This document shows, piece by piece, positions 1,571 through 55,429 of a stretch of 64,000 bases of DNA (positions within the stretch are counted from its first letter, which is position 1; each line of letters opens with the position of its first letter). A program made the translations under genes and the position numbers. Origin of the DNA: a virus. The stretch spans positions 1 to 64,000 of the IMG/VR virus record IMGVR_UViG_3300042197_000642; one strand, written 5' to 3'. The notes under the pieces are model-generated. The model made no database searches. It saw only the letters and a list, made by a program, of their open reading frames with translations, and was not told the DNA's origin.

Positions 1571-2938
1571 ATGCTCGCAATATGTATAGAAACACAGGAA
1601 GCAGAGGCACGACTTCAAACTATCGTGTTCCCTACTTCCAATGATGTGTCCATACTCCACCGCACTTTTACAGGTGAACGAGGTCGAGGACAGACATGGC
1701 GTAAGACAGAGGTAGAAAACCTACCTACCGCACCAATAACTAAATCACCATGCGCCGTAGTAATTACAGGCAGGGATATGGAATTGGTCGCTCAAAACCA
1801 ATTCACTAATCTAGGTGTTCGTGCTACTTCCGCACTAGATACCGCCCAAGAAATATCCGTAGAAAAATCTCACAAAGAGGTGGTCGAGGAGTTTATTGGT
1901 CGTCTATTCGAGGGCGATATGAGCCTCAATGATTACCTAGTAGATAAGCGATACTCAAATGGGGTCGCTATCAAACCTATACAAAAATCCGCAGTAATGG
2001 AAATACCAACTAATCAAAGCGCACCAACTATCAGGGCTACCAATTATGAAGTTAGCAATATAAATGAAATGGTAGTAGTTCCTGATATTAAATGGAGTAA
2101 GGAATATGTAAATCGTAAAGTCGGCGGAATTAAGGAGTTCGATATTTACGATAAAGCCATGATGAACCATGAGAATATCCTTATCGAAGGTCATGCTGGA
2201 AGTGGTAAGACCATGAGTGTTATCGCCTACGCAAGTGCGAGAGGGTATCGCTACTACAATGTATCTAGCCATATTGGATTAGAAGCAAGCCAATTATTCG
2301 GCAAGTGGATACCAACCGCAGACGGACACTTTAAGTGGCAAGACGGCGCAGTTAGCGAGATAGTTCGTAATGGTGGTGTATTACTACTTAACGAAATCAA
2401 CTTCATACCTGAACGAGTATCAACAGTATTATTCTCACTATTAGACGATAGACGAGAAATACAACTAATGGATAATGGTGGCGAAGTAATTAAGGCTCAC
2501 ACCGACCTACTAATCGTGGGCGATATGAACCCTAACTATCGTGGCACTCGACCAATGAACCAAGCATGGAAAGACCGCTTCCACCATGTATTAGAGTTCC
2601 CTTATGAAGTATCTATCGAACGCAAGTTATTAAAATCAAATGCGCTAATTACAATGGCTAATCAACTACGAACTCAATTTGAGAACGAGGAAATTACAAC
2701 TCCAATATCAACTCGTTCGTTAGTATCGCTAGTAAGAAACGCAAAGCAATTCGGTATCGAATACGCACTTTACAGTTATACAAATAAGTTCGATATACAT
2801 GAACGCAACGCAGTTAAGTTAGTATGCGATACACACAAAGTAAATATCTGCCAAGACTTAGATATTGAAATAGCGATACCTCAAACTCAATTAGAGGAAA
2901 CAACTATTGAAGTAATTACAAGTGAGGCGATTAACTAA
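1571..2938 (+). CDS. MoxR/CobS-like AAA+ ATPase
   Basis: This AAA+ ATPase of the MoxR/CobS type (455 aa) has Walker A GHAGSGKT at residues 207-214, Walker B around 270-275 with catalytic Glu275, and the sensor-1 segment GDMNPN at about 318-322 followed by conserved arginines. The first 180 residues are poorly conserved and may be a substrate-adaptor region. The start at 1571 has an AAAGGGAAAACA ribosome site. Its stop overlaps the ATG of the CobT-like VWA gene (TAATG), the classic ATPase/VWA operon. Family members act as chaperone-like metal-insertion or remodelling machines, and in cobalamin synthesis CobS partners CobT in the cobaltochelatase. No CobN subunit is present here, so a chelatase role is not established. 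Confidence 0.85.
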   Translation: MLAICIETQEAEARLQTIVFPTSNDVSILHRTFTGERGRGQTWRKTEVENLPTAPITKSPCAVVITGRDMELVAQNQFTNLGVRATSALDTAQEISVEKSHKEVVEEFIGRLFEGDMSLNDYLVDKRYSNGVAIKPIQKSAVMEIPTNQSAPTIRATNYEVSNINEMVVVPDIKWSKEYVNRKVGGIKEFDIYDKAMMNHENILIEGHAGSGKTMSVIAYASARGYRYYNVSSHIGLEASQLFGKWIPTADGHFKWQDGAVSEIVRNGGVLLLNEINFIPERVSTVLFSLLDDRREIQLMDNGGEVIKAHTDLLIVGDMNPNYRGTRPMNQAWKDRFHHVLEFPYEVSIERKLLKSNALITMANQLRTQFENEEITTPISTRSLVSLVRNAKQFGIEYALYSYTNKFDIHERNAVKLVCDTHKVNICQDLDIEIAIPQTQLEETTIEVITSEAIN

Positions 2939-4857
2939 TGAAGTTCAAAAACTCTGAATTATTAGATATGGAGTTCCGTCAATTATGGAACGAAACTCCT
3001 GAGGAGTTATCAGAACGCCATGATGAGAAGCAACAACATATTGCTGAACTCAACAGTATTGCCAATGTATATACAAAGGCAGACCGCATATTGGTAGGTA
3101 ATGAAATTACTTGCCATGTAGTCGAGAACGAGGAATACAAAGAAGCCATGCCAACAGGGGCGTGGTCTGACGGCAAAAATATCTACTTCAATTCTGACTT
3201 AATAGATGAAGTAGATGAAGCCTCACTCGTATCGCTTCATGGACTTAATTACCATGAACTTGCTCATGTATTATATTCACCAAGAAGTTCAAGTGAAATA
3301 ACTCAATGGGCTAAGATTAACAATTACGGAAAGTCTTTCAATGTATTAGAGGAAGCGAGAATTGAAACTTTACTTACAACAAAGTATCCAAGCACTCGTA
3401 TATTCCTAGAAGCAACAACACTTCAATATCTATTAGACCGACCAAAAGATGAGTGGGCAGACGCTTACCCAATTATGGTGGGTAGAAAATATGTAGATAT
3501 AGAGTGGCGTGAAATCACAGGAAATCTATTCTCTCGTAAATATGGATTACCACTAGCAATAGAAATTACCGATATAGTAAATAAATATCGAACACTCGTA
3601 TTCCCCGACGATTACGCTATTGCTAAAACTCTAATCGAAAGATTAGGGCAGATAATCAACGGCAACCTTCAACTACCTGAAACCAAAACATGCGTATCAC
3701 GACCAAGTATGGACAAGGGCAGACCTGAGGGAAAGCGTGAGCAACAACGCTTACAAGATATGGCAAAAGGTAAATCTGAAACTGACCCACAACTAAATGG
3801 GGAAGGCGCAGATAAAGGTAAAGGCGAGGAATTAAATCCTAATACCGAATTAGATAGCAAAGATATTAACGCTGGACTATCTGATAACGAAAAGGAATTG
3901 CTGAAGCAGAAGTTAGAAAAGATAATTAACTCCAAAGATGTAAAGAACGAGTTAAAGAATACGCAAAAAGCAATAAGCAAAGCCTCACACAGAAACTCAT
4001 TACCAAAGGCAGGACTAACTCATAACGCAACTCCAACTACTGAAATGCGTGGCGTAGCAAAACGCTTCGCTGACGAATTGGAAAGATTACGAGTAGAAGC
4101 CGACCCTTCATGGGAACAAGAAACTCCAAGTGGTAGGCTTAACATAGGTCGAGCCATGAAGCGAGATATAAATAACCTTAATCGAGTATTCGATAGGTGG
4201 GAGTTCAATTCAGATAATACGGATATAGAAGCAGTAATCCTATTAGATAGAAGTGGCTCAATGTGGAATATGAAGTCGGTGTGTGAAAGCGCATGGGCTA
4301 TCAAGCGAGCAGTAGAAAGAATAAATGGGAAAGTAGCAATTTATTCCTTCAACCACAATAGCCGAACTCTCTATCGTGCTGACGAAAAAGCAAATCCAAA
4401 TGTAGTTAGAGCGATACAAAGTAATGGTGGCACAGACCCATATCAAGGGCTACTGGAAGCCGAACGAGTATTCAACGCAACTACCGCCCCGACCAAGTTA
4501 TTGTTTATCCTAACAGACGGCGAGTGGGCTAATGATGAAGCGTGTGATACTACTATCAAACGCCTAAACCAAAATGATGTCGAAAGTATTGTGGTGTATC
4601 TAGGAACGCTAGATGTAGCCATGACCTACGAACAATGGAGTGAACACCAATTAAGGTGGGTAGATAAAAACAATGCTGAGGCAGTAGCGGAAGCCACCAA
4701 AGATATAAATGAAACTAAATATCAAGAATACAAATCGTATTATGATATTAACAGATACAAACATAACGCTAAATACTTCCGAGCGATTACAAAACCCACA
4801 GACTTAGTTCAAGTAGCGAGGGATATAACTAAGTCAAAACTAAAGGTCGCTCGGTAA
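2938..4857 (+). CDS. CobT-like protein: HExxH domain plus C-terminal VWA domain
   Basis: This 639-aa partner of the AAA+ ATPase is coupled to it through TAATG. The N-terminal half carries an HELAH motif (His106, Glu107, His110) and a downstream EEAR motif (138-141), as in gluzincin-type metal sites seen in CobT-like proteins. The middle (about 250-360) is charged and probably disordered. The C-terminal VWA domain has the MIDAS signature DRSGS (Asp437, Ser439, Ser441) and a later GGTDP loop. CobT-family VWA proteins are docked by their AAA+ partner and recruit the substrate. Whether this one works in cobalt insertion, proteolysis or virion remodelling cannot be read from the sequence. Confidence 0.8.
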   Translation: MKFKNSELLDMEFRQLWNETPEELSERHDEKQQHIAELNSIANVYTKADRILVGNEITCHVVENEEYKEAMPTGAWSDGKNIYFNSDLIDEVDEASLVSLHGLNYHELAHVLYSPRSSSEITQWAKINNYGKSFNVLEEARIETLLTTKYPSTRIFLEATTLQYLLDRPKDEWADAYPIMVGRKYVDIEWREITGNLFSRKYGLPLAIEITDIVNKYRTLVFPDDYAIAKTLIERLGQIINGNLQLPETKTCVSRPSMDKGRPEGKREQQRLQDMAKGKSETDPQLNGEGADKGKGEELNPNTELDSKDINAGLSDNEKELLKQKLEKIINSKDVKNELKNTQKAISKASHRNSLPKAGLTHNATPTTEMRGVAKRFADELERLRVEADPSWEQETPSGRLNIGRAMKRDINNLNRVFDRWEFNSDNTDIEAVILLDRSGSMWNMKSVCESAWAIKRAVERINGKVAIYSFNHNSRTLYRADEKANPNVVRAIQSNGGTDPYQGLLEAERVFNATTAPTKLLFILTDGEWANDEACDTTIKRLNQNDVESIVVYLGTLDVAMTYEQWSEHQLRWVDKNNAEAVAEATKDINETKYQEYKSYYDINRYKHNAKYFRAITKPTDLVQVARDITKSKLKVAR

Positions 4858-7863: not shown

Positions 7864-8319
7864 TCATGGGAACTTTAACTCTCCTTTAGGACCAGTCCAA
7901 ACTAACCCTATTGAATCTCCAGGATTTAAGTATTGTTGGTCTATAGCAAGTTGTCCCCAACCCCATTCTTTTCTTGGAAATGGTATAACTTGTTTTTCTT
8001 TAATAATGATTGCCCAGTATGCTTCGGCTGGCGGCATGACTTCACAGGATTCAACAGTTTCATTTGGTAATCCATTTACTCGACAGATAACGCCATTACC
8101 ATACTTTTTTGTGCCTTCAATTTGAAGGTTGGCTTCTTTTAATACCTCTAAAGCATTTGTTTTAGTAGATGTATCAACACAAGTTGTTAACTTTGTATTG
8201 TTATCTAGTTGACCATAATCAACATACAAATTTACACATGAATCATTTGAGGAGTTTGTCGAAGACCAGACTCCGATCACAAGACCCGTGGCTATAACGA
8301 ATAGTAGTCCTTTTTTCAT
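7864..8319 (-). CDS. Secreted DUF4430 / transcobalamin-like C-terminal domain protein
   Basis: The 151-aa protein begins with a typical signal peptide or membrane anchor (MKK, then a hydrophobic core to about residue 18). The mature part fits the transcobalamin-like C-terminal (DUF4430) fold: an opening strand, a TNALEVLKEAN helix, a strand with YGNGVICRVNG, the key AYWAIIIKE strand (about 100-108) and a closing LNPGDSIGLVW strand (131-141). Four cysteines (28, 47, 79, 92) could form two extracellular disulfides. In human transcobalamin and intrinsic factor this fold covers the bound corrinoid. The gene starts 2 bases after the class II reductase stop. A role in capturing extracellular cobalamin is inferred from fold and neighbours. 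Confidence 0.7.
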   Translation of the reverse strand: MKKGLLFVIATGLVIGVWSSTNSSNDSCVNLYVDYGQLDNNTKLTTCVDTSTKTNALEVLKEANLQIEGTKKYGNGVICRVNGLPNETVESCEVMPPAEAYWAIIIKEKQVIPFPRKEWGWGQLAIDQQYLNPGDSIGLVWTGPKGELKFP

Positions 8320-10509: not shown

Positions 10510-11982
10510 CTATTGATTTTCTTCTATTGCACCCTTAATTATCTGGGTAGTTTCTTCTTCGTTTAGGCCGTTGTTAGGTAGTTCTCGAAGCACATTTGCC
10601 TTGTCTCCAAATATCTGAGAAAGCACTCCAGCGCTACCTTGGCGCTCTACGGTCATACGAATAAACTCTCTAGAATCATCTAATTCTTTAACTGTTTTAA
10701 TTAACTTAAATAAACGGTCTATTTCTTGAGATACGTTAGGATCGGCGTATCCACCGTTCATTTCTTCACTAAAACGCATAAAAGCAACGCGTTGTCCCTG
10801 CATTTCAATGATTGCATTGATAAGGGATTTAAGTTGTTCTTTGGTCTTTACCTCTACTGGTAACTTAAAAGCACAAGCATTATTAGGTTTAAAAGCAGGG
10901 CAATTTGCTGCAACAAAGCAAGTGTTACACTGCCTTAAAGTACCCGCTTGGGATTGAATAACTTGTACTTCTTTAATGACCCCATCAGCATCAACTTCTG
11001 TTTTTGTATCGTATCCAAACACCGGTAAATTGATAATTTCATCAGGATTTCTTGGTATAAGTTTCCGCTCTTGTACCCCCTTTGTATCAGCATTGTCGAG
11101 GGTAGTTTCCGCAGTTGTAGCAGGTACATTTTCACTGCTTATATCTGATATAAACTCTTCTTCATCATATGGTCCCACGGTGTTTATCCTATCTTCTAAT
11201 CGTTCGTATGACCATACTGCTAACTTACATACCTCTTTAGGGTCATCTTCAATAATCTTATCAAAGTCTATACCAGCCTTATCGTATATATGTCTATACC
11301 TAGAACGGGCTTGGTCTTTCATTCTCTTTGGGTATCTAACTATTCTAGAACCGTCCCAAATTATGGTTTCACCGTGCATCATTGGGGAAAGCCAGGACAT
11401 AGTGCTTGCGGTCTCACACTGTATAGACCTTAGATTGTCAGGCTTAGCACACGCAATAGCGTGAAATCTAGTACCCCTACGTCGAACAAATGTACGAGTA
11501 GCTGCAGCTAGGAAGCTATAGGCTTCTATATCTTGACCTGATATTCCTACATCTAAATACGAATCTACTAATTTATTAAGGCCAGCTTGACCTGTTGGAG
11601 AGTGCCATACAGGCAAAAACTTACCGGGTGGAACCTCGGCCCAGCAAGTGCGTCTTTGGGTTTCTATAAACTCTTGGGTTAATAATGGGTGATCCAATTC
11701 GGTAAATAGGGTTATACGGTCCATATTATTGGCTATAAACTCTTCATACTCAGCTGCAAAGCTCTCAAGCTCAGCTTGATCCAGGTTTGCGTCCTTTGGT
11801 ATACCGCCATGAACATAAATACTATTATCCGATTTAAAATGGTCCGATAATAGGTAGTTCTTTCGCTTAGGAAGACCGCGTTTTGTTAATCTCCAAAAGC
11901 TTACCCCTATGCTAGTAGCTGTAGTAGTTTCCAATAAGGTCCGATTGCTCGGAACCTCTGCGCCCAAATATATGATTTTCAT
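10510..11982 (-). CDS. Phage protein resembling tRNA-guanine transglycosylase/DpdA TIM-barrel proteins
   Basis: The 490-aa protein opens with MKIIYLGAEVPSNR and has an ELDHPLL segment, a PVWH motif, DVGISGQDIEA, an FHAIACAKPDNLRSI segment and STMSWLS...GETIIWDG. This order of motifs is reminiscent of TGT-like TIM barrels that phages use as DpdA enzymes to exchange guanine for a 7-deazaguanine in DNA. The C-terminal third adds a cysteine cluster (CNTC...C...C around residues 354-372) that could bind metal, then a helical tail. I saw no 7-deazaguanine biosynthesis genes in the window. The assignment is tentative. The alternative is an unrelated phage protein of unknown function. Confidence 0.4.
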   Translation of the reverse strand: MKIIYLGAEVPSNRTLLETTTATSIGVSFWRLTKRGLPKRKNYLLSDHFKSDNSIYVHGGIPKDANLDQAELESFAAEYEEFIANNMDRITLFTELDHPLLTQEFIETQRRTCWAEVPPGKFLPVWHSPTGQAGLNKLVDSYLDVGISGQDIEAYSFLAAATRTFVRRRGTRFHAIACAKPDNLRSIQCETASTMSWLSPMMHGETIIWDGSRIVRYPKRMKDQARSRYRHIYDKAGIDFDKIIEDDPKEVCKLAVWSYERLEDRINTVGPYDEEEFISDISSENVPATTAETTLDNADTKGVQERKLIPRNPDEIINLPVFGYDTKTEVDADGVIKEVQVIQSQAGTLRQCNTCFVAANCPAFKPNNACAFKLPVEVKTKEQLKSLINAIIEMQGQRVAFMRFSEEMNGGYADPNVSQEIDRLFKLIKTVKELDDSREFIRMTVERQGSAGVLSQIFGDKANVLRELPNNGLNEEETTQIIKGAIEENQ

Positions 11983-12626: not shown

Positions 12627-13551
12627 TTTGGGTTAATGCCCTACGGACGAGAAGACTAGCATCTGGAAGCTCCATTCCGTAAGTATGCGACTCAAATTCT
12701 TTTCGTGTCTGCGTTGATATTTCTTTCATTCGTTTTAATGCTGGTATAACTCCTGAGGCTTTGCCGGACTGCCACCTATAATTAGCATAATCTTCGTATC
12801 CTTGACCTTCTGGGGTAAAGGCAGAACTTCGTCCTTTATGTATAGAATCAAATAAGGCGGCACCTTGATCTACCGCTAACTTTAAAGCAGCTTCGGCATT
12901 TCTTCTAGCAGCATCATTTTTAGCTGCTTCTACTCCATAGTAAGCGTTGTTATATCTTTGAAGAATCTCTAATGCCATAGTTTTATCTTTTTCTAATTTA
13001 GGTTCCCAGTCCTTACGGAACGATGCACCCTCTTCTGCGGGCTCTACAGTCCAAGAATCTGAAGTTAAGGAGTAAGCGGCATAGGGTTTAATCTTTGTTA
13101 TATCTGACACGACATTGACATAAAAAGTAAGTTCAAACACATTAAGAAACTCTTCTGTATTTGGGTGTAAGTTTTCTCTAAACCCTTCATTTAAGGTTTG
13201 AGCAATTTCTCTGTCGCTTAAAGTTGCATACCTTTGGTTAGCTTGTCTAAATTTAATGTAATCAATTCCTATTAAACAGTCTAAATCTGCTGGCTCACGC
13301 TGAGCAGCCCATTGATAGCTGACTCCTGATCCAGCTAACCATACATGTGTATAATCTTCAGGGCTGTAAAATCTATCTTTTAAGTGCCCAAATAAGATAC
13401 TAAGAATTGCGTTACGAACGCTAGGAATTAACTTTCCATTTATAAATAGTCTTGGATCTAAACCACCGGCTAATTTACTAAAATATGAAGTATCTGAAGG
13501 TTCTAAGTTAATTGGTGTAGATTGTTGCACTAATGCGTCATAGTAATTCAT
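12619..13551 (-). CDS. Nucleotidyltransferase-fold protein (310 aa)
   Basis: The polymerase-beta-like nucleotidyltransferase signature is visible around residues 71-95: a GSG turn followed by a DLDCLIGID strand holding two carboxylates in DxD spacing, with a further acidic or strand position in the FELTFYVNVV segment. Similar single-domain proteins are common in actinobacterial phages and are annotated as nucleotidyltransferases without a known substrate. The C-terminal half is helical with an Ala-rich region, probably a substrate or partner domain. It is part of the minus-strand run upstream of the reductase cluster. Confidence 0.65.
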   Translation of the reverse strand: MNYYDALVQQSTPINLEPSDTSYFSKLAGGLDPRLFINGKLIPSVRNAILSILFGHLKDRFYSPEDYTHVWLAGSGVSYQWAAQREPADLDCLIGIDYIKFRQANQRYATLSDREIAQTLNEGFRENLHPNTEEFLNVFELTFYVNVVSDITKIKPYAAYSLTSDSWTVEPAEEGASFRKDWEPKLEKDKTMALEILQRYNNAYYGVEAAKNDAARRNAEAALKLAVDQGAALFDSIHKGRSSAFTPEGQGYEDYANYRWQSGKASGVIPALKRMKEISTQTRKEFESHTYGMELPDASLLVRRALTQNG

Positions 13552-13566
13552 GTGTACTATGATAAC

Positions 13567-13809
13567 TTATATAGATACTCCGCCGTCATCTATGTCCCCC
13601 TCATATTCTTTAAATCTATAATTTGGTTTAATTGACGGGAAATCTAAACGCTTTACTGTTTCAGGTTTATCAGAACGAGTGTTAGCCATATATCCGCACT
13701 GCTTGTGTGCATCAACAAATTGCTGTGCCCATAAAAGTGCTAAATTTGAATCGTCTTCTGCTTCAAATTGGAACGATGCCACGCATGGGCATGTCATTTC
13801 TATGAACAT
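13567..13809 (-). CDS. Small hypothetical protein with N-terminal Cys pair (80 aa)
   Basis: A GGAGGGGTAAAT ribosome site precedes ATG 13809. Residues 7-9 read CPC, and the segment after it (FEAEDDSNLALLWAQQFVDAHKQCGY) is a helix typical of small phage zinc or DNA-binding modules. The C-terminus is acidic. It lies between the nucleotidyltransferase and a small acidic gene. The function is unknown. Confidence 0.55.
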   Translation of the reverse strand: MFIEMTCPCVASFQFEAEDDSNLALLWAQQFVDAHKQCGYMANTRSDKPETVKRLDFPSIKPNYRFKEYEGDIDDGGVSI

Positions 13810-50886: not shown

Positions 50887-51399
50887 CTAAACTTGTGCGT
50901 AACTTAAAAACTGAGCGTCATTAACCATTTCATCAGGCATTACCTGTTGCATATCAACTGTAACAATAGTATATCTTTCAGAAACAATACCGGCGTTCTG
51001 AACTTTAAATGGACGGTATACCTGTCCTTTCCAGATCACACGGTCTCGTGTAGTTGCGTCTGTTGATGCAATAATTCCAGGGTTCATGCGCTCTAAGTCG
51101 TCTACGTTCATTGTTAGATGTAAAGTATCAGTATTGTAGAAACCGCGATCACTTTGTAAGACTTGACCTTGTGTAATAGTAGCTCTAATTACTGGAACTT
51201 TAACTGGAGATTTCCATACACGACCAGCTCCTACAGCCTCAACATCATAAAGAGAATCTTTTGTAGAAACGTCAGGCCTGTACACCCACCAGTCTGCCAC
51301 AGTACCAGCAGGATTAGTTAAGTCTGAGGTAATACCATCACTAATTGAATCTAATTCAAAATCAGAATCAAAACGACCACCAGGGGTGTACCCACGCAT
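50887..51399 (-). CDS. Head-tail connector/neck-like protein (170 aa)
   Basis: A beta-rich protein with WWVYRPDVSTKDSLYDVEAVG early and VLQSDRGFYNTDTLHLTMN and DRVIWKGQVYRPFKVQNAG later; such text is typical of a phage head-closure or head-tail adaptor beta barrel. It overlaps the glycosyltransferase by one base. The head genes would be expected further to the right, outside the window, except that fibres intervene. Confidence is moderate. Confidence 0.5.
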   Translation of the reverse strand: MRGYTPGGRFDSDFELDSISDGITSDLTNPAGTVADWWVYRPDVSTKDSLYDVEAVGAGRVWKSPVKVPVIRATITQGQVLQSDRGFYNTDTLHLTMNVDDLERMNPGIIASTDATTRDRVIWKGQVYRPFKVQNAGIVSERYTIVTVDMQQVMPDEMVNDAQFLSYAQV

Positions 51400-52463
51400 T
51401 AAATCTCCTCAGCAGTATAGAACTCTAGGTTACGCTTTAATCTTTCATCTGTGGGGTTGAGCTCAATTGCTTTTTTACCGTACTCTAAAGCTTTGTTTCT
51501 ATTACCTAAATGGTATTGGCTTAGCGCAGCAAAGTCGTATGGGTTTGGCCCCCAAGCAAACTCTTCACATAAATAGTCTAAAGGTTTTTCTTTAATACTT
51601 AACGCGGCTTCAGCCATCTTAAGACAAGAACCCCAAATCTCTTCTTTGTAATAAAGTTCCGACAACTCTACTAAAGCTTCTCTTCTTGTTGGGTCTTCAT
51701 TATGCGCTTTTAGTAACCACTCTTCTTTTACCGTAAAATTATCATCCATTTTTGCTATGTACCTCATAGAAGCGGCTCGTTCAGGTTTCCATACAGCTGT
51801 TTGTAAACTTAAATGCCTTTTAAACTCTTTTGTTGATTCTTCGTATTGACCATAGAAATATAGCTCTCTTGCATAATAAAATGCATTTCTATCATTAAAT
51901 GGGTTTTCTATAGTAGACACCTTTAGTAAAGGAAGGTACTGACTTCTAGGTTTTGAGTTATCAGCTTTATGATGTATTTCTAGCTCAGTCCACTCTTGGG
52001 TTTCTACAAAACCATGTGCGGGCGCTACTACTTCATGCACTGGATGCTTCCAAATATAACCAAATCTAGTATGTATCTTTTCTCCACTAAACTGAAGTCC
52101 CGGACTTCCATCTTGATTAAAGTTCCAAGTAAACTTGTATCTTGGTCTTGTAATATTTAACTTAAATACTTTTTCTAACTCCGGTCTCCAACCATCTACC
52201 AATAGCTCATCCATGTCCAAAGCAATACAATAATCAATATCATTAGGTAAAACGGCTAAAGATACGTTTCTAGCAACATCAAATCGCCATGGGTTTATAA
52301 AAGATTTAACTACAACTATTCCTAAGGATTCTGCAATTTCAACTGTTTTGTCTGTAGAACCTGTATCTAGTATTAAATGATAATCTGCATCTTTTGAAGA
52401 CTCATACCAACGTTTAACAAATTGCTCTTCATTTAGAGCTATGGTGTATACGGCTATCTTCAC
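51399..52463 (-). CDS. Family 2 glycosyltransferase with TPR-like C-terminus (354 aa)
   Basis: The N-terminal GT-A domain has IAVYTIALNEEQFVKRWYES, DTGSTDKTVEIA and the metal-binding ALDMDELLVDGW (DxD). C-terminal helices about 235-345 read as tetratricopeptide-like repeats. Enzymes of this kind are scattered through bacterial surface-sugar loci and some phages. Here, inside the structural cluster, it could glycosylate phage virion proteins or alter the host surface. The substrate is unknown. Confidence 0.8.
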   Translation of the reverse strand: MKIAVYTIALNEEQFVKRWYESSKDADYHLILDTGSTDKTVEIAESLGIVVVKSFINPWRFDVARNVSLAVLPNDIDYCIALDMDELLVDGWRPELEKVFKLNITRPRYKFTWNFNQDGSPGLQFSGEKIHTRFGYIWKHPVHEVVAPAHGFVETQEWTELEIHHKADNSKPRSQYLPLLKVSTIENPFNDRNAFYYARELYFYGQYEESTKEFKRHLSLQTAVWKPERAASMRYIAKMDDNFTVKEEWLLKAHNEDPTRREALVELSELYYKEEIWGSCLKMAEAALSIKEKPLDYLCEEFAWGPNPYDFAALSQYHLGNRNKALEYGKKAIELNPTDERLKRNLEFYTAEEI

Positions 52464-53471: not shown

Positions 53472-55138
<1,667 letters not shown>

Positions 55139-55139
<1 letters not shown>

Positions 55140-55429
55140 TAGTCGTTTACCCCTCCACAATCAACTGGGTCTAACCCACCGTATTCACTAGTTGGCGTTC
55201 CAGCATCTACGTTTTGAAACAATGGACCTTGTGCTCCAGTTGGACCAGTTACTCCTTGAGAGCCCGTAGGCCCAGTAGGTCCCTGAGTTCCTTGTGGACC
55301 GGTTGGTCCTGTAGGACCGACAACTTGTGTGGTTTTAATTAACCAAACACTGCCATCCCAATACCATGTATGGGTGCCAACAGTAAACTCTTCATTTAGT
55401 GCTGGACTATTTGGAAAGTCTATTGGCAT
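55139..55429 (-). CDS. Short collagen-like tail protein (96 aa)
   Basis: Begins [18 protein letters not shown]...[11 protein letters not shown], the same anchor as the 277-aa fibre, then [16 protein letters not shown] repeats and a short end with one cysteine (VDCGGVND). It looks like an anchor plus stalk without a head. It follows a terminator on the same strand and is coupled to the long fibre by TAATG. Confidence 0.7.

Follow-up and report, generated by a model that had tools for sequence, protein, structure and literature searches.

A phage operon linking a predicted transcobalamin-beta-like protein to class II ribonucleotide reductase and cobalamin adenosyltransferase

Why would a freshwater phage encode a protein that resembles transcobalamin? 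The question is raised by a gene at positions 7864-8319 of a 64-kb window, that is, the whole stretch of DNA analysed here, which comes from a 95.8-kb IMG/VR virus contig. A first-pass annotation had described the product as a secreted, transcobalamin-like (DUF4430) protein encoded by a phage. The contig is indeed a phage, with genes for tail sheath, baseplate, PolA, UvsX and DnaB. It also encodes a tail-fibre protein with collagen-like GPTGPTG repeats (53472-55160, minus strand) and, amid tail and structural genes, a glycosyltransferase (phrog_13126; 51399-52463, minus strand). The annotated 151-aa product was likewise borne out, as an ORF occupies exactly these coordinates, though on the minus strand (8319-7864); stops are found throughout the plus strand of the interval, and the frame is intact on the minus strand only. 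This orientation was absent from the annotation, as were the neighbouring ribonucleotide reductase (RNR) and adenosyltransferase (ATR) genes and a 44-aa partner (SM). The ORF is a real gene and not a chance one, because it has at least 100 viral homologs and a dN/dS of about 0.25 by simple pairwise Nei-Gojobori counts, which give about 0.28 for SM. The sequence features highlighted earlier were all found in the protein, namely AYW at residues 100-102, GDSIGLVW at residues 134-141 and four cysteines (28, 47, 79 and 92). Across 22 viral homologs there is little or no variation in any of the four cysteines or in YW, EWGW and GDS.

The N-terminus of this protein, referred to here as DUF, consists of a positively charged start, MKK, followed by a hydrophobic segment at residues 4-22 (mean KD 1.53), with neither a lipobox nor an obvious AxA cleavage site. 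No lipobox precedes the first cysteine, C28, which belongs to strand 1 of the domain, and LPAM_1 gave one weak match (E 0.47) among the 22 members. Since both a lipobox and an AxA site are missing, the segment resembles a membrane anchor (N-in/C-out, the simplest topology) more than it does a cleaved signal. The signal-peptide-like N-terminus of the annotation survives as a hydrophobic segment, and its secreted protein as a predicted extracytoplasmic one, which from its sequence is more likely to be membrane-anchored than freely secreted.

Assigning the protein to a family proved less direct. By sequence, searches of Pfam, NCBIfam, PHROGs and the PDB returned nothing usable, and the annotated DUF4430 membership found no backing at the profile level: at its curated cut-off PF14478 (Pfam DUF4430) matched neither the protein nor the record nor any of the 22 members, although the same tool matches it in control genomes. 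An hhalign comparison with 12 true DUF4430 domains gave a weak, colinear alignment at 31.6% probability, whereas 30 column shuffles reached at most 5.0% and unrelated profiles 0.2%. AlphaFold2 models were obtained with 22 homologs (pLDDT 70, pTM 0.66) and with 31 homologs (pLDDT 78, pTM 0.71). When the latter was searched against the PDB with Foldseek, ranks 1-2 were 3u7z (top E 1.5e-4, prob 1.00) and ranks 3-16 were mammalian transcobalamin, its isolated beta domain or haptocorrin, with E-values of 1.5e-4 to 1.8e-2 over ranks 1-16 and intrinsic factor further down; the pLDDT-70 model gave a similar outcome. The structure 3u7z is that of R. gnavus RUMGNA_00854, presumably a DUF4430 protein. 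Target-normalised TM-scores to transcobalamin beta were moderate (0.63-0.67). From the Foldseek ranks we therefore call the predicted fold DUF4430/transcobalamin-beta, formal PF14478 membership aside, and in this sense the transcobalamin-like description was upheld. A two-domain (alpha plus beta) carrier was not found, the 151-aa protein comprising the beta-like domain only and its neighbours encoding RNR, SM and ATR.

These neighbours form a compact operon with DUF, in the order RNR (10367-8322), DUF (8319-7864), SM (7867-7733) and ATR (7733-7170) on the minus strand. The first gene encodes a class II (adenosylcobalamin-dependent, monomeric RTPR-type) ribonucleoside-triphosphate reductase of 681 aa, which matches TIGR02505 at 363.5 bits (cut-off 340.05) as well as PF17975, PF21995 and phrog_367 and contains the NPCAE motif. 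DUF starts 2 nt past the RNR stop (spacing +2), the SM start overlaps the DUF stop (-4, ATGA), and the ATG of ATR overlaps the SM stop (-1, TAATG). The last gene encodes a 187-aa PduO-type cob(I)alamin adenosyltransferase, with 205.5 bits to PF01923 (cut-off 24), 180 bits to TIGR00636 (cut-off 108) and the motifs TKTGDDG and RRAER. Between DUF and ATR, SM is a 44-aa membrane protein with a short N-terminus, a single hydrophobic helix and a C-terminal tail, IWRSLTGH, predicted to lie outside. It has no Pfam match, and a chromosomal counterpart lies beside host DUF genes; the tail is kept in the form IWR(S/A)(L/M)TGH in all 16 aligned viral copies.

Because DUF lies immediately between RNR and ATR, SM apart, and the window encodes no recognised transporter, one might suppose that it is an intracellular B12-related partner of either enzyme, such as a chaperone or escort for corrinoids, rather than an uptake protein. 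We think this unlikely, given the hydrophobic N-terminal segment, the four conserved cysteines and the existence of a bacterial lipoprotein form beside an ECF transporter. Rfam searches of the phage and of 20 bacterial loci revealed no cobalamin riboswitch. Just upstream of RNR, a gene at 10510-11982 (minus strand) matches phrog_887, queuine tRNA-ribosyltransferase, and possibly encodes a DNA 7-deazaguanine modification enzyme. Elsewhere in the window (1571-4857, plus strand), genes for an AAA_5 ATPase and a VWA protein overlap by 1 nt. The PHROG match of the ATPase is phrog_249 ('porphyrin biosynthesis', CobS-like), yet against the CobS equivalog it scores 22 bits, far under the cut-off of 559, and a cobS label would be doubtful.

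The operon is widely conserved among viruses. One scan recovered 46 viral relatives of DUF and a profile scan at least 100, of which 80, on 80 distinct viral contigs, were kept for neighbourhood counts. RNR was upstream in 67 of the 68 contigs with at least 300 bp of upstream flank, and among the 76 contigs with enough downstream sequence SM followed in every case and ATR in 73. Indeed, this gene order was kept across contigs from many datasets while the wider neighbourhoods differed. Chance carriage of a drifting host gene without function is thus scarcely credible: only a subset of class II RNR phages carries the gene, but the number of viral loci, the low dN/dS, the constant presence of SM and the overlapping reading frames already contradict it. 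The exceptions are informative about the core of the module. For example, one viral locus (L046) has DUF-SM-ATR with no RNR nearby, and two others (L133 and L196) have RNR-DUF-SM without ATR, the pair in L196 (1129-3700) lying behind a divergent class II RNR. Therefore, DUF-SM is the constant core. Class II RNR phages can do without the cassette, because the RNR neighbourhoods of phage DSL-LC01, whose RNR is 77% identical, and of mycobacteriophage Gaia contain no DUF, SM or ATR gene; similarly, a tblastn search of the 50,697 INPHARED records found no DUF homolog.

Exclusion systems are often single-gene membrane proteins. As DUF and SM are likewise predicted to be extracytoplasmic and membrane-anchored, and are homologs of a host surface protein, the pair could instead mimic host DUF-SM so as to occupy or block the host B12 importer against competing phages that use it as a receptor, the link to RNR and ATR being incidental. 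This we judge improbable, because the pair sits in one operon with two AdoCbl enzymes, conserved in contigs from many datasets, and is under strongly purifying rather than diversifying selection.

Homologs in bacteria point to B12 from a different direction. In an Aurantimicrobium MAG, the gene immediately upstream of an ECF transporter gene encodes a lipoprotein homolog (39% identity, BLASTP E 1e-19), and clear homologs occur in 48 of 300 genomes of the MAG's family, two more that lie close to the E-value limit not being counted. In all 30 loci examined the homolog adjoins, and lies upstream of, a fused ECF T-A-A gene. MetH (PF02965) is also present in 48 of the 300 genomes; 44 have both, 4 have the homolog alone, 4 MetH alone and 248 neither (Fisher p 2.7e-43, the genomes not being phylogenetically independent). 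Where homolog and metH share a contig, they are 2.4-5.8 kb apart and convergently arranged in 35 of 37 cases. Complete loci (L314, 876-7376; L315; L316; L318, 5713-12362) run from the DUF lipoprotein through the ECF gene and a likely S component to a convergent metH, an arrangement also seen in Arthrobacter sp. StoSoilB13. The adjacency to ECF and metH is hard to explain otherwise than by B12, even among genomes that are not phylogenetically independent, and the locus is apparently an undescribed actinobacterial one for B12 uptake. Use of AdoCbl was rejected as an explanation of these bacterial loci because ATR (PF01923), unlike MetH, does not co-occur with the homolog (1 of 48, p=0.48). An Embleya plasmid (L317) has two DUF-like copies (7989-8318 and 13352-13681), the second of which closely precedes matches to ECF-like ATPases.

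The bacterial loci also bear on whether the fold might serve some other small-molecule ligand, with its place beside B12 genes a regulatory convenience. Corrinoid binding is a prediction, the TM-scores are moderate and the depositors of 3u7z labelled it a putative metal-binding protein; the family nevertheless turns up beside B12 genes twice independently, with RNR and ATR in phages and with metH in bacteria, and we accordingly give a different ligand a low probability.

A second group of bacterial relatives suggests where the phage pair came from. Among 297 Actinomycetes genomes, the ATRs nearest to that of the phage share 69-73% identity with it (next best, 66%) and belong to genomes of 1.2-2.2 Mb, mostly known members of one family, that of genome G450, which we infer from genome size to resemble freshwater Nanopelagicales. 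A chromosomal DUF gene is present in 6 of 81 genomes of this family, and in each of the five such loci that were read an SM of 53-56 aa comes next, ending in WRFWGGH, WRYWGGHY or WRLWGAC. The DUF proteins of phages and of the G450 family group together (support 0.91), and the ECF-linked lipoproteins fall outside this clade. Such small-genome Actinomycetes are the likely hosts of the phage, since its ATR is closest there and the family carries a DUF-SM pair that groups with the phage proteins; given the joint clade, the phage pair itself was most likely derived from a host pair of this type. Phage and host SM profiles are only weakly similar, 1 of 50 shuffles matching or exceeding the observed score, and their proposed homology rests on gene order, size, an alignment free of gaps and the shared WRxxxG[HC] terminus. 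ATR is present in 74 of the 81 genomes, a search of all 81, run without a positive control, found no match to the phage-type RNR, and no ECF gene was seen near the host pair in the 18-kb locus read.

The predicted fold, the place between an AdoCbl-dependent RNR and ATR, and the bacterial ECF/metH loci all lend good support to the core of the annotation, a predicted extracytoplasmic, transcobalamin-like corrinoid binder that would serve B12 supply. Building on the operon, its conservation, the predicted fold and the bacterial linkage, we favour as probable a reading in which DUF and SM form a membrane-anchored extracytoplasmic pair that captures corrinoid and raises the B12 supply for the phage RNR, the four genes making up an AdoCbl supply-and-use module. 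The N-terminal helix would hold DUF in the host cytoplasmic membrane, with the transcobalamin-beta-like domain outside to bind scarce corrinoid. SM, co-translated and lying beside it with one helix and an external C-terminal histidine, may help to hold the corrinoid or pass it on, and import would then proceed through the host's own importer. The phage adenosyltransferase would convert the imported corrinoid to AdoCbl, which the class II RNR would consume to make dNTPs. We infer that uptake would increase and the phage would benefit in fitness. Counted against this mechanism were the lack of a curated-family match and the hhalign probability to DUF4430 of only 31.6%, the absence of an Rfam cobalamin riboswitch and of a recognised transporter, the DSL-LC01 RNR without a module, the bacterial DUF-ECF loci without ATR co-occurrence, and the host pair without a nearby ECF gene.

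A bolder version is conceivable but doubtful. Here the stand-alone transcobalamin-beta-like receptor and the 44-57-aa membrane protein would form a B12 capture complex in which the C-terminal histidine (His/Cys in host homologs) is an axial cobalt ligand, the complex supplying the host importer or acting as a minimal importer and so controlling AdoCbl flux into viral DNA synthesis. The human transcobalamin beta domain can on its own bind both cyanocobalamin and cobinamide, and its crystal shows the cobinamide cobalt coordinated by a histidine of a neighbouring molecule (PMC5599065); this offers a precedent, not proof, for such a role of the SM histidine.

Enhanced B12 uptake during infection was previously proposed for viruses with class II RTPR, with no gene named (Wu et al. 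2023, PMC10547690), and a partial literature search found no viral B12-uptake gene. The four-gene module is a candidate gene set for this idea, which thereby becomes testable, and suggests that some of these B12-dependent class II RNR phages may bring their own help for obtaining the vitamin. It also points to SM as a family of tiny membrane proteins with an invariant C-terminal histidine (cysteine in one host copy). The abundant Actinomycetes of freshwater are believed to rely on imported B12; there, viral capture of the vitamin, if true, would tie lysis to its flow.

Several known systems can be compared with this module. The beta domains of transcobalamin and haptocorrin (5no0, 5np4, 4kki) resemble the phage protein in its predicted fold, its predicted extracytoplasmic place and its disulfide capability; the beta domain by itself can bind cobalamin (PMC5599065), whereas the phage protein is a predicted binder, has no alpha domain, shares 13-16% identity, is phage-encoded and is probably membrane-bound. 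DUF4430 proteins provide the top fold match, 3u7z, and a weak colinear profile alignment, but the phage family has extra conserved cysteines and EWGW/MPP motifs and no PF14478 match. Like this phage, class II RTPR phages of marine virioplankton and mycobacteria have their own AdoCbl-dependent RNR, discussed as relying on host B12 (PMC10547690), although the RNRs of DSL-LC01 and Gaia lack DUF, SM and ATR neighbours. The lipoproteins of Microbacteriaceae and Arthrobacter are homologous to phage DUF (31-39% identity), with TEGT.YG..VCRVNGLP, E.C..MP..YW, W and G.S in common; they are anchored by a lipobox rather than an N-terminal helix, adjoin a transporter rather than RNR/ATR and, in the loci read, are not directly followed by SM. 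The G450-family pair is chromosomal, lies between gcvT and an aldo/keto reductase gene, has a loop about 11 aa longer and occurs in few genomes, yet it shares with the phage pair the two-gene order, the predicted N-terminal anchor, the WRxxxG[HC] C-terminus of SM and up to 50% DUF identity.
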